DNA of 64,000 nucleotides from Candidatus Frankia nodulisporulans (GTDB lineage Bacteria; Actinomycetota; Actinomycetes; Frankiales; Frankiaceae): positions 1 to 64,000 of the forward strand of contig NZ_CADCWS010000003.1 in the NCBI RefSeq assembly GCF_902806475.1, in the 5' to 3' direction. Numbering within the stretch: the first letter of the stretch is position 1; the number at the start of each line of letters is the position of its first letter. Below the pieces are notes generated by a model. The model saw only the letters and a list, made by a program, of their open reading frames with translations, did not search any database and was not told the origin of the DNA. This document shows positions 12,843-56,875 of this stretch, piece after piece. Position numbers and translations under genes: made by a program.

Positions 12843-13655
12843 ATGCCCACCGACGAGGTCGCCCCCCTGCCGGTTCCCGCCGCCGGCCGGCCGGCGGCGC
12901 TCCGGTCCGGCGGTTCCGCGGAACCCCGGGGTTCCGCGGAACCGCCGGTGGACATGCAGGCGGTGAAGGTCCTGGCGCCGTCGTCGGCCACGGCGGCTGG
13001 CGTCGTCCGCGGTGGCGAACGGCGCGGTGGCGAACGGCGCGGTGGGCGTGGCGCGCGGGAGCGCATCCTGCGGGCGGCGGAGCAGCTGTTCTACGCCGAG
13101 GGCATCAACACCACCGGTATGGAGCGCCTCACCGAGGTCGCCCAGGTGTCGAAACGGACCTTCTACCAGCACTTCCCCAGCAAGAACGCGCTGGTGGAGG
13201 AGTATCTGCGCCGGCTCGACACCCAGACCGTCCCCCGGGAACGCGTCCTGCGCCGCGAGGATCTCCCGCCCCGCGCCCGGCTGATCACTCTCTTCTGCGA
13301 GGACCCGGTCGGCGGGGCGGCTGGCGAGTCGGGCGGCGAACCAGACGATCGGGATGGGGCCCGCCGCGTCCGGGCCCGTGGGTGCCCGTTCCACAACGCG
13401 GCGGTGGAGCTGGCGGGCACGGTACCGGCCGTCGAGAAGGCCGTGCTGGACCACAAGGAGGGCTTCACCCAGCTGCTGATCGACACCGCCCGCGCGGCCG
13501 GTGCCACCGACCCCACCTCGCTCGGGCGCCAGCTCACCGTGCTGTTCGAGGGTGCGACCGCCCTGTCGACCACCCTGAACGACGCGGCTCCGATGGCCGA
13601 CGCCCGATCGGTCGCCCTTGTCCTGTTGGAGGCGGCCCTCGGAACCGAGGCATAG
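12843..13655 (+). CDS. TetR/AcrR family transcriptional regulator
   Basis: 270 residues. HTH at residues ~70-120: RERILRAAEQLFYAEGINTT and VAQVSKRTFYQHFPSKNALV. The first ~65 residues are low-complexity and unlike TetR proteins; they contain a 42-bp perfect palindrome and a 15-bp tandem repeat (GERRGGERRGG), so a later start, for example the ATG at 12954, is possible. A second insert rich in Gly, Glu and Arg lies at residues ~155-180. It is divergent from the aldo/keto reductase, with two operators between. Confidence 0.87.
   Translation: MPTDEVAPLPVPAAGRPAALRSGGSAEPRGSAEPPVDMQAVKVLAPSSATAAGVVRGGERRGGERRGGRGARERILRAAEQLFYAEGINTTGMERLTEVAQVSKRTFYQHFPSKNALVEEYLRRLDTQTVPRERVLRREDLPPRARLITLFCEDPVGGAAGESGGEPDDRDGARRVRARGCPFHNAAVELAGTVPAVEKAVLDHKEGFTQLLIDTARAAGATDPTSLGRQLTVLFEGATALSTTLNDAAPMADARSVALVLLEAALGTEA
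12907..12948. repeat. 42-bp perfect palindrome without spacer
   Basis: Two 21-bp arms meet with no loop. The centre is CCCCGGGG and each arm contains GGTTCCGCGGAACC, itself a 14-bp palindrome. It lies within the low-complexity 5' part of the tetR frame, encoding SAEPRGSAEP. It would form a cruciform, or a very stable hairpin in the mRNA. Confidence 0.9.
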
Positions 13656-44815: not shown

Positions 44816-44850
44816 GAAAGGGCGTCCCGCCCAAGGCGGGACGCCCTTTC
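44816..44850. terminator. Bidirectional terminator between convergent thiolase-type genes
   Basis: 16-bp perfect stem GAAAGGGCGTCCCGCC with its complement around a 3-base loop (CAA); flanking A and T runs belong to the stem. Confidence 0.85.
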
Positions 44851-44870: not shown

Positions 44871-46016
44871 TCAGGTGGTGAGGATGGAGACGGCGGCGGT
44901 GCCGGGGGCGCCGTAGAGCTGGGCGTAGCCGACCCGGGGGTTGCCGGGGACCTGGCGGTCGCCGGCCTGGCCGCGCAGCTGGCGGACCAGTTCGTGGATC
45001 TGGCGCAGACCGGAGGCGCCGATCGGCTCGCCGTTGGCGATCAGGCCGCCGTCGGTGTTGACCGGCAGCCGGCCGCCGATCTCGGTGGCGCCCTCGGCGA
45101 GCAGCTTCTCCTGCTCACCGTCGGCGCAGAAACCGTTCTCGGCCATGTGGATGATCTCGGCACCGGCGTCGGTGTCCTGCAGCTGGATGACGTCGACGTC
45201 CTGCGGGCCGATCCCGGCGGCCTCGTAGGCGGCCCGGCTGGCGTAGACGGTCGGCGCGACGTCCTCCTCGACCGCGGCCCACGAGCTGTGCACCTCGTAC
45301 GCGCCGTAGCGCCGGGTGCGCAGCGCGGTGGCCCGCAGGTAGATCGGGTTCGAGGTGTAGCGGTGGGCGATGTCGGCCCGGCACAGCACCACGGCCGCCG
45401 CGCCCTCGTCCGGCGAGCAGAACATGTACTGGGTCAGCGGGTAGTTGAGCATCCGCGCCCCGAGGATGGTCGCCTCGTCCAGCGGCTTGCGGCGGAACGC
45501 GTTGGGGTTGAGCACCCCGTTGCGCAGGCTCTTGTTCACGACCTTCGCCAGGGTCGCGTGCGAGATGCCGTGGTCGTGCATGTAACGGTTGATCTTGATG
45601 CCGAAGAACTTGGTGGTGAGGAACTGGCCGGCCTCGCCGTACCAGGACGGCGCGCTGTAGTACTCCGGGTCGGCGGTGAACGCGCCCGGCAGGTGCTTGT
45701 CCATGCCGACGGCGACGCCGAGCTCGTACTTGCCGTAGCGGATCGCGTCGGCGGTGAGCTCGAGGGCGGTGCCGGCGGTGGCGCAGCCGTTGTAGACATC
45801 CATGAACGGGATGCCGGTGAGGCCGAGCAGGCTGATCACCGCGTCCGGGTTGTCCACCTCGTTGCTGCCACCGAACGCGAACTGCACATCCGACCAGCTG
45901 ATTCCGGCATCGGCGCAGGCGGCCCGCACCGCCTGCGCACCCATCTCGATCGCCGACTTCGGCCCGAACCGGCCGAACGGGTGAATGCCCACCCCGACGA
46001 TGGCGACGTCGTGCAT
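44871..46016 (-). CDS. Ltp3/Ltp4-type lipid-transfer/thiolase-superfamily protein
   Basis: 381 residues, ATG at 46016. Thiolase fold: VAIVGVGIHPFGRFGPKSAI and VYNGCATAGTALELTADAIR with the nucleophile Cys. The two other catalytic positions differ: HDCF is LQDTDAGAEIIHM, and GHP is LIANGEPIGASGLRQIHEL. This QDTD/GEP pattern is, to my knowledge, that of the actinobacterial Ltp3/Ltp4 group rather than of working thiolases. A DUF35 gene lies just upstream (46072-46497), so the two probably form a complex, as Ltp-DUF35 partners do in steroid degradation (inference). Confidence 0.85.
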   Translation of the reverse strand: MHDVAIVGVGIHPFGRFGPKSAIEMGAQAVRAACADAGISWSDVQFAFGGSNEVDNPDAVISLLGLTGIPFMDVYNGCATAGTALELTADAIRYGKYELGVAVGMDKHLPGAFTADPEYYSAPSWYGEAGQFLTTKFFGIKINRYMHDHGISHATLAKVVNKSLRNGVLNPNAFRRKPLDEATILGARMLNYPLTQYMFCSPDEGAAAVVLCRADIAHRYTSNPIYLRATALRTRRYGAYEVHSSWAAVEEDVAPTVYASRAAYEAAGIGPQDVDVIQLQDTDAGAEIIHMAENGFCADGEQEKLLAEGATEIGGRLPVNTDGGLIANGEPIGASGLRQIHELVRQLRGQAGDRQVPGNPRVGYAQLYGAPGTAAVSILTT

Positions 46017-47480: not shown

Positions 47481-48928
47481 CTACTGTTCTTCATAGCGTG
47501 CCCGTAGCACCCGACGCAGCACCTTCCCGGACGGTAACCGGGGGATCTCGTCGGTGAACATGACGCGGCGGGGCCGCTTGTACGACGCGAGCCGCCCGCC
47601 GACCAGCGCGATCAGCTCGTCCGCGGTGACCGGCGCCCGGGTGCTGACGGCGGCGATGACCGCCTCCCCGTCGGCGGCGTCCGGGATGCCGAACACGGCG
47701 CAGTCGGCCACGGCGGGGTGTCGGTGCAGCACCGCCTCCACCTCGGCCGGCGCCACCTGGAACGCCCGTACCTTGATCATCTCCTTGCGCCGGTCGGTGA
47801 GCCGCACCCAGCCGTCCGCGTCCACCTGGCCGAGGTCGCCGGTGCGGTACCAGCCGTCCACCATGACGTCCGCGGTCGCCGCGGCCGGCAGATAGCCGGC
47901 CATCACCGACGCCGACCGGGCCTGCAGCTCGCCGGTGGCGCCGACGGGCAGCACGACGCCGCTGTCGGGGTCCACCACCCGCAGTTCGACGCCGTCCACC
48001 ACCTGGCCGACGCTGTCCAGCGGCGCGCCGGTGAGCGACGTGCGCCCGGGCGGCGTGCAGGTGAACAGCGGCACCTCGCTGGCCCCGTAGGCCGTCACCC
48101 ACCCAACCCCGGTGCGCGCCGTCACCGACTCGGCGACACTCGGGGTGACCGGGGTGGCGCACCACATGATGTAGCGCAGCGACGACAGGTCGAACGACTC
48201 CAGTGTCGGATGCCCGGCGATCGCCAGGGCGATCGGCGCCACCGCCATCTCGATGGTGACCCGGTCCGCCTCGATGGCGTGCAGGACCCGGTCGAGGTCG
48301 AACCGGCGGTGCAGACGCATCCAGGCACCGGCCGCCCACACCGTGGCGATGTTGAGAATGCCAAGGATGTGCGACGGCGGCGTGGCGATCTGCATCCGGT
48401 CGGCGCCGGTCATTCCCAGCGCACGCCGCCAGTGCCCGACCGCCGCGTCGAAGGACGCGTGGGTGTGCCGCACCGCCTTGGGCAGCCCGGTCGTCCCGGA
48501 GCTGAACACCAGCAGCGCCTCGGCGTCCGGGCGCGGCACCGGCCAACGGGGTGAACCCGTGGCCGACCCCGCCGCCGGCCGACCCGGTGTGACCGCCTCG
48601 ATCGGCTCGTCCAGGTGCAGCATCGGCATGGCGGCGGCGAGCGCGGGGTGGTCGCCCACGGCGTGGCGCGGTTCGGTGAGGGCGAGGGCGTCCTCGCCCT
48701 CACCGAACCGCGCCACGCCGGACTGAACAGCACCGCCGCCGCACCGACCCGCCACAGCGCCCGCACCGCGACGACGAACTCGGGCCGGTTCGACGACATC
48801 AACGCCACCCGGTCACCGGGGCGCACCCCGCGGGCGACCAGCCGACGGGCCAGCCCCTCGGTCAGCGCCTCGAGCTCGGCCCGGCCGTAGCCGCGCTCGC
48901 CGAAGGCAAGGACCACGCGATCTGTCAC
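47481..48928 (-). pseudogene. Acyl-CoA synthetase broken by an inverted-repeat insertion
   Basis: The N-terminal part starts at the GTG at 48928: VTDRVVLAFGERGYGRAELE, then RVALMSSNRPEFVVAVRALW and AAVLFSPAW. The frame then changes within a 62-bp palindrome (48659-48720). It resumes as ALALTEPRHAVGDHPALAAA and continues intact: LLVFSSGTTGLPKAVRHTHA, VGWVTAYGASEVPLFTCTPP, WYRTGDLGQVDADGWVRLTD, and IPRLPSGKVLRRVLRARY with the catalytic Lys. So all catalytic motifs survive and only the segment before ALALTEPRHA is replaced by its own inverted copy. A second-half product from an internal start is possible but would lack part of the N-domain. Confidence 0.8.
48659..48720. repeat. Perfect inverted repeat, 29-bp arms with 4-base loop
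   Basis: Left arm 48659-48687 and right arm 48692-48720 are exact reverse complements, separated by GCGT. On the minus strand the lower-coordinate arm encodes the native ALALTEPRHA; the other is its inverted copy. It lies inside the ligase gene and causes its frameshift. Confidence 0.92.
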
Positions 48929-54951: not shown

Positions 54952-56736
54952 TCACATGGGTCTCGGGATCACGGGGTCGCCGTCCGTCATGGCGCCACCA
55001 TGACCGGTCGGCGGCGCGGGCCACAGGGCGGCCCCCGACCCGGTCGCGGGCGCCGCCACCGGGTCGGGGGCCGCTGCTGGGCGGCGGCGCCGGCCGCTCT
55101 TCGCCGCGTACATCGCCCGATCGGCACGCCGCAGCAGCTCCTCCGGACCCTCCAGCGGACCGGCCGCGGCCACCACCGCGAGCCCGACGCTCACGGACAC
55201 CCGACGGTCGTGTCCGTGGACCCGCAGCGGGTTGTACATGGCCTCGCGGACCCGCTGTGCCGTGAGCTCCCCGACCGCCCGCGGGTCGTTTCCGAGATCG
55301 CGCAGCAGCACGGCGAACTCGTCCCCACCGATGCGGGCGGCGAGATCCCCCCGGCGCACCGCGCCCCGTATCCGGCCGGCGACCGCGCGCAGCAGCTCGT
55401 CACCGGCGGCATGGCCCAGGGTGTCGTTGACCGCCTTGAACTCGTCCAGGTCGCAGTACAGCAGCCCCACCGGCGTTCCGTGCGCCCGGTGGTCCTGGAC
55501 CGCGTCGGCGACCTCCGCGTCGAACAGCATCCGGTTTCCCAGTCCCGTCAGCGGGTCGTGCAGCACCTGGTAACGCAGCTCCTGCTGGGCGACGCGCACG
55601 CTGACCAGGAGCCGGGTGTTCTGGGCGACGGTCACCATCTGCCGGATCAGCACGAGCGCCACCAGCGTGATGAACAGGGTCAGGGTGACTCCGCGCAGGG
55701 CGTCGCCCCGTGCCGCGGTCGCCACCACCAGCCCGGCGACGGCGCTCAGTGGCAGGTACGGCAGGTAGACGTGCGCCCACACCGCGAGCTGGTCGCCCCA
55801 TGACCGGCAGGGCGTGCCCGGCGCGGACGTCAGGCCCGGGCCGGGCCGCCTGCGCCCGGGCGGGACCAGCATGGCCAGCCCGAGCAGCGGCGGACCGAGC
55901 GCCAGCCCCACCCAGGCACTCGTGGTCTGGTTGATCTCCACCCGCTGGATCAGCGCCCACTGGACGCTCGCGCCGGTGGCGACCGTGGTGCACAGCGCGC
56001 CGGCCGCGTACAGCGCGACCGCCCGGGGACTGCGGGGACGGCCGAAGGTGAGCAGCAGCAGCAGGGCGAACAGCTCGGCGGCGCTGCCGAGGATGGTCCC
56101 GAGCCCCAGCCAGTACTGGGCGGCGGACAGTCCGCTGCTGTGCAGGTCGCCGAGCACCTCCACCCACAGCAGCAGAAGGACGGACCCGGCGATGAGCAGT
56201 CCGTCGAGGAGCATCAGCAGGTAGCGACCCAGGTCGGGCTTCGCCCGGCACGGGTCGGCCGCGTCGCGCCGGGGCTCTCCCGGCAGCGCCAGCACCGCCA
56301 GGAACGCCAGCCCCACCGGCACCAGGTGCACCGCGTTCAGGCTGGCGTAGTGCACCCGCCGGTCGTGGTCCACGCCGAAGACCACGATCCACTGGATCGC
56401 CCCGACCACGACGAAGACCAGCACTCCGGTCAGCAGCGCCCGCCAGCGCCGCTCCTCCCGGCGTGTGCGCAGCACCGCGACCACGCCCAACAGCAGCGAC
56501 CATCCGCTCAGGACCAGCGGCCCGAAGATCTCGAAGGGACGCCGATTCCCGCCGTCGAGCGCGGCCTGGGGGATGAGGACGGCGGCGACCAGCACCGCGG
56601 TGGCGAACGCGAGCAGGCCGAAGGCCCGACCGCCCAGTGGCGCCGCGGGCAGGAGAGCCGCGGCGACCCCTGACGTGGACGGCGCGCCGGGCGAGGCCCC
56701 CGGGTCGGTCGCGAGCGGAACACCAGCACGACGCAT
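54952..56736 (-). CDS. Membrane-bound diguanylate cyclase (GGDEF domain)
   Basis: 594 residues from the ATG at 56736 (AGGACG upstream; a start at 56775 is possible). About ten hydrophobic segments fill residues ~20-370, for example FGLLAFATAVLVAAVLI, LLTGVLVFVVVGAIQWIVVF and LLMLLDGLLIAGSVLLLLWV. A short linker follows, then a GGDEF domain with HDPLTGLGNRMLFDAEVADA and RIGGDEFAVLLRDLG (residues ~470). The catalytic GGDEF is intact and no EAL domain is present, so c-di-GMP synthesis is expected at the membrane. Low-complexity Ala/Pro tail. It interrupts the catabolic region and has no evident functional link to it. Confidence 0.92.
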   Translation of the reverse strand: MRRAGVPLATDPGASPGAPSTSGVAAALLPAAPLGGRAFGLLAFATAVLVAAVLIPQAALDGGNRRPFEIFGPLVLSGWSLLLGVVAVLRTRREERRWRALLTGVLVFVVVGAIQWIVVFGVDHDRRVHYASLNAVHLVPVGLAFLAVLALPGEPRRDAADPCRAKPDLGRYLLMLLDGLLIAGSVLLLLWVEVLGDLHSSGLSAAQYWLGLGTILGSAAELFALLLLLTFGRPRSPRAVALYAAGALCTTVATGASVQWALIQRVEINQTTSAWVGLALGPPLLGLAMLVPPGRRRPGPGLTSAPGTPCRSWGDQLAVWAHVYLPYLPLSAVAGLVVATAARGDALRGVTLTLFITLVALVLIRQMVTVAQNTRLLVSVRVAQQELRYQVLHDPLTGLGNRMLFDAEVADAVQDHRAHGTPVGLLYCDLDEFKAVNDTLGHAAGDELLRAVAGRIRGAVRRGDLAARIGGDEFAVLLRDLGNDPRAVGELTAQRVREAMYNPLRVHGHDRRVSVSVGLAVVAAAGPLEGPEELLRRADRAMYAAKSGRRRRPAAAPDPVAAPATGSGAALWPAPPTGHGGAMTDGDPVIPRPM

Positions 56737-56875
56737 GGACGGCGTCCTCCCTCCCCGCCCAGCATCACCCGGCACAACGGCCCGCGCATGCCAAAACCCT
56801 GCGATACGCGATCACATGGTGACGCCCTGACGCCAGACGCCCGGCCCACCATCGATGATCAGCCTGGCCGCCCGC

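Follow-up and report, generated by a model that had tools for sequence, protein, structure and literature searches.

Perfecting of an inherited quasipalindrome as the probable origin of a 29-nt inverted repeat in a broken acyl-CoA ligase gene of Candidatus Frankia nodulisporulans

Anatomy of the inverted repeat and of the broken gene

In the genome of the root-nodule bacterium Candidatus Frankia nodulisporulans, a gene for an acyl-CoA ligase loses its reading frame at a perfect inverted repeat. This locus raises the question of how such a palindrome arose within coding DNA, and whether it belongs to the living genome or only to the assembly. The window, that is, the whole stretch of DNA analyzed, covers positions 1 to 64,000 of the forward strand of contig NZ_CADCWS010000003.1 (assembly GCF_902806475.1). 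The source assembly is a draft with 4,872,823 bases in 609 contigs, 85.99% completeness, and 0.29% contamination. The contig has 64,418 bases, and the palindrome is located in its interior, far from both ends. The features of the locus are as follows, in window coordinates.

47481–48928, minus strand: gene for an acyl-CoA ligase (AMP-binding enzyme) whose frame is interrupted at the palindrome; recognized by Pfam, the two frames, and intact orthologues in Frankia sp. R82 and Frankia sp. AiPa1
48721–48928, minus strand: N-terminal ligase part, 69 codons, in its own frame until the palindrome; matches the start of Pfam AMP-binding
47484–48686, minus strand: C-terminal ligase part, 401 codons without a stop, in a different frame; matches the rest of Pfam AMP-binding and AMP-binding_C
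48692–48720, minus strand: rewritten arm on the N-terminal side; 2 nt longer than in R82 and AiPa1, with clustered substitutions, and the reverse complement of the other arm
48688–48691, minus strand: 4-nt loop, from the inverted-repeat search and the fold
48659–48687, minus strand: template arm on the C-terminal side, coding for the native ALALTEPRHA
48697–48713 (about), minus strand: shortest patch covering every change common to both comparisons, from the alignment; the switch points would lie around it

The two 29-nt arms are 100% complementary and 4 nt apart. The original prediction of exact 29-bp arms with a 4-base loop inside a ligase gene was borne out by the inverted-repeat search and by the frame change at this place, and translation agreed that ALALTEPRHA is encoded by the arm nearer the C terminus. 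The palindrome ranked first in the window's list of 21 inverted repeats. Among perfect hairpins whose loop did not exceed 20 nt, it was also the longest in the 1,643,722 bases sampled from 81 stretches of the source genome, while the longest arm in five order-5 Markov sequences of the same size was 16 nt. A simple composition estimate put the chance of a 29-nt hairpin at about 7e-10 in the window and 2e-8 in the 1.64-Mb sample.

From 48928, the N-terminal frame can be followed across the palindrome as far as a stop at 48410 (172 aa); the C-terminal frame is uninterrupted between 48755 and 47481. Translation restarting at 48755 would yield a protein lacking the N-terminal part, and the loss of the frame suggests that the ligase activity has been lost. 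The NCBIfam matches of the ligase were mostly acyl-CoA ligases and synthetases, with none above the cut-off among the 25 matches listed. Judging from the identities of the same-strand neighbours (enoyl-CoA hydratase, ChsH2-like OB-fold protein, thiolase-like protein, amidohydrolase, and acyl-CoA dehydrogenase), the neighbourhood looks like a catabolic acyl-CoA cluster. Among the matches listed, the C-terminal part had just one further hit in this genome, at 38% identity, and no close spare copy of the ligase was seen. In the same neighbourhood, a perfect 16-nt hairpin of terminator-like form was observed at 44816–44850, just past the 3' end of the thiolase-like gene (44871–46016, minus strand).

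The C-terminal part remains constrained. Its dN/dS against R82 was 0.22, and of the codon changes on the window branch 3 were nonsynonymous and 11 synonymous. Because this part is constrained and without a stop, the frameshift is either recent or an artefact.

Comparison with relatives

The ligase was aligned with its orthologues in R82, the closest of the relatives compared, and AiPa1. R82 is described as closest to Candidatus Frankia nodulisporulans AgTrS, Ag45/Mut15, and AgPM24 (PMC9670867). In both relatives the ligase gene is intact and in a single frame. The whole-gene alignment to R82 gave 1312 identical bases out of 1422, and both flanks were collinear, with order and strand kept.

The direction of the change can be read from this comparison. 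R82 and AiPa1 share one form of the arm, which can be taken as ancestral: neither has the 2-nt insertion, the two agree at the changed positions, and the window alone deviates. The template arm differed from the relatives by ordinary differences only, and the changes making complementarity were confined to the other arm. Moreover, this new arm complements its own opposite arm in the window, including one base there that neither relative has.

In the R82 orthologue, 24 of the 29 arm positions are already paired, forming a quasipalindrome, while the AiPa1 orthologue is barely one. The same order was found in single-strand DNA folds, with −17.7 kcal/mol (z = 0.1) for AiPa1, −29.5 kcal/mol (z = −5.3) for R82, and −47.2 kcal/mol (z = −13.0) for the window. 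The second arm had originally been described as an inverted copy replacing native residues; it is indeed an exact complement, but the arm that it replaced was largely complementary beforehand.

The best 80 of 185 relatives by protein similarity, including R82 and AiPa1, were used as an orthologue set. Both protein halves share one frame in 80 of the 80 orthologues, and in none of them does a perfect hairpin in the corresponding 180-nt span have arms longer than 8 nt. In-frame palindromes in orthologues, which would have spoken against a break in this lineage and which the original prediction had proposed to look for, were thus not found in this set.

Proposed mechanism

Taken together, these observations suggest that a quasipalindrome inherited from the common ancestor with R82 was very probably perfected by a single template-switch event. 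The ancestor shared with R82 would already have carried an imperfect inverted repeat in the ligase gene. During replication, a nascent strand on which the C-terminal-side arm (48659–48687) had just been copied may have folded back or jumped to the complementary strand, and the N-terminal-side arm (48692–48720) would then have been rewritten with 48659–48687 as the template before the strand went back to its normal template. Such a patch would add 2 nt and several substitutions together, and the resulting frameshift, probably a recent one, would have inactivated the gene. The nascent plus strand of the window would be the one involved in an intramolecular switch, and the nascent minus strand in an intermolecular one.

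Work in E. coli and phage T4 has established this mechanism (PMC7202029). Template switching during replication had been proposed for this locus from the start; alignment, fold, and pairing supported the proposal and sharpened it to the correction of a quasipalindrome that existed before.

Other perfect hairpins of the genome

The comparison was extended to other perfect hairpins of the genome. Both relatives were set against 11 of the 114 hairpins, including 3 of the 13 with arms of at least 20 nt. The 11 compared, given by stretch and start position, were the ligase palindrome, L165:14843, L122:2761, L190:10717, L147:17849, L156:5686, L174:17695, L125:18678, L180:16167, L156:15377, and L166:6740. 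Eight of them were perfect here and imperfect in both relatives (the ligase palindrome, L165:14843, L122:2761, L156:5686, L174:17695, L125:18678, L156:15377, and L166:6740), a count that is biased because the hairpins were picked for their perfection in this genome. The L190:10717 hairpin is conserved in R82, and L147:17849 and L180:16167 aligned poorly to the relatives.

The hairpin at L165:14843–14899 (G000:C23) has perfect 26-nt arms outside clear coding DNA, and R82 and AiPa1 are without several of its right-arm bases; it is likely a second quasipalindrome correction. At L122:2761–2803 (stretch from G000:C1:20001), perfect 21-nt arms flank a 1-nt loop, and the right arm shows three clustered substitutions against both relatives and no indel. 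In two coding hairpins, L174:17695–17737 and L125:18678–18714, changes towards pairing seem to have occurred in both arms, a pattern that a single one-way copy does not explain.

Two further hairpins were observed within the window. One is a perfect 21-nt palindrome without a loop at 12907–12948, with a weak coding signal on one side. The other, at 55028–55074, has perfect 17-nt arms and a 13-nt loop and lies close to where a long open frame on the minus strand (54955–56811) ends.

Perfect hairpins of at least 16 nt numbered 26.8 per Mb here (44 in 1.64 Mb), 16.7 per Mb in R82 (5 in 0.30 Mb), and 12.5 per Mb in the Frankia assembly G006 (5 in 0.40 Mb). Against the pooled relatives, the density in this genome gave p = 0.07 for hairpins of at least 16 nt, 0.07 for at least 18 nt, and 0.80 for at least 13 nt. 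Most of the perfect hairpins counted fall outside clear coding DNA. Coding hairpins of at least 13 nt, selected by a strict filter that excludes the frameshifted ligase by design, numbered 13 here, 2 in R82, and 3 in G006, corresponding to about 8, 7, and 7.5 per Mb, respectively. Because these densities are about equal, the perfecting of hairpins is no more than a background process in this genus, and the counts show no excess that would point to a hypermutator lineage. Two coding hairpins of R82 were also sought in this genome and in AiPa1, with no match in either, and this reverse control was therefore uninformative.

It is conceivable, though on present evidence doubtful, that multi-base changes in high-GC Frankia coding DNA repeatedly stem from quasipalindrome correction, and that uncultured nodule strains, with their smaller genomes, lose some of their genes by this route. 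If so, the ligase would be the gene-breaking case, and L122:2761, L174:17695, L125:18678, and L156:15377 would be changes that were survived.

Alternative explanations

The palindrome may instead have been made by a template switch in library amplification or by an assembly error, with the gene intact in the living organism; this is improbable, yet it is the alternative that survives best. Polymerases can also correct quasipalindromes in vitro, and strong hairpins are difficult to sequence. The draft state of the assembly (609 contigs) and the constrained, stop-free remainder of the gene (dN/dS of 0.22; 3 nonsynonymous against 11 synonymous changes) also fit an artefact. However, a consensus normally reflects many molecules, and the collinear flanks mean that two switches were required, just as a natural event would need. 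Elsewhere in the assembly, comparable perfected hairpins have left the frame undamaged, and perfect coding hairpins reach about the same density in two further Frankia assemblies, of which one is a single contig. The library or assembly fold-back considered in the original prediction is unsupported in its simple form, since both flanks stay collinear with R82 (1312 of 1422 bases identical). A simple fold-back chimera would show one strand switch without a return, or a contig end, whereas here the palindrome is contig-internal.

A stepwise origin, in which separate substitutions and an insertion were kept by chance or by selection for the hairpin, is very unlikely. The quasipalindrome of R82 does indicate that pairing was built up before the last change. 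Against it, the several changes in the ligase are clustered within about 17 nt and all go towards pairing, including the complement of the base private to the window. Independent point changes were simulated at 8% divergence on 0.70 Mb of the relatives' DNA in 20 rounds (14 Mb). New hairpins of at least 16 nt appeared at 1.1 per Mb, but in the 14 Mb no new arm reached 20 nt, the longest being 19 nt, and by this simulation a stepwise gain is improbable. Moreover, a hairpin that disrupts the gene carrying it is an implausible target of selection.

That a functional element (transcription terminator, attenuator, or recombination site) was acquired in the gene is hardly credible, for although a hairpin this stable (−47.2 kcal/mol as DNA) could stall transcription or replication, there is no T run on either side, only 2 nt are extra compared with the relatives, and the 80 orthologues hold no counterpart. 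An intrinsic terminator was rejected, as the hairpin lies within a gene and not after one and the T run is absent on both sides. A mobile element was likewise rejected, and the absence of a mobile-element signature, as originally reported, agrees with the net gain of just 2 nt against both relatives.

Significance and comparison with known systems

With perfecting by one template switch as the preferred reading, the ligase palindrome is apparently a clean natural instance of a long-known type of replication error. It can be regarded as a fossil of that error, in which the template arm, the rewritten arm, the direction, and the outcome are all readable from two relatives. If it is real in the cells, it shows that the mechanism has knocked out a gene in an actinobacterial lineage in nature. 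To our knowledge, Actinobacteria are mostly without MutS/MutL mismatch repair, and the actinobacterial rate of such events is therefore of some interest. The ligase case alters no general view. A literature search on template switching together with inverted repeat, frameshift, and pseudogene in bacterial genomes found no paper, from which no absence from print is claimed.

Arms of 29 nt are probably at the long end of the range of quasipalindrome mutations. The Ripley model, the E. coli thyA hotspot, and the lacZ QP5/QP6 reporters, as presented in PMC7202029, concern quasipalindrome-associated mutation, in which an imperfect repeat is perfected by a patch templated on the other arm, giving a frameshift or substitutions, as at the ligase. 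Those are selected laboratory mutants, whereas the present case is an evolutionary change seen by comparing natural Frankia genomes.

Template-switch footprints between genomes were reportedly described by van Noort et al. in 2003. Such footprints are also reported for yeast coding genes (PMC8604942), rRNA genes (PMC8794818), and great apes (PMC7954356). As these papers describe it, relatives are compared there too, and clustered changes are read as one reverse-complement copy of a nearby stretch. Unlike those surveys, however, the present analysis offers one clear frameshifting case and a small, biased set. Perfect inverted repeats within protein genes are also described in the mitochondria of Nematomorpha (PMC6649704). 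According to that account, the palindromes are numerous, occur in four species, and reach 284 bp, whereas in Frankia the ligase palindrome belongs to one lineage and the frame is lost.
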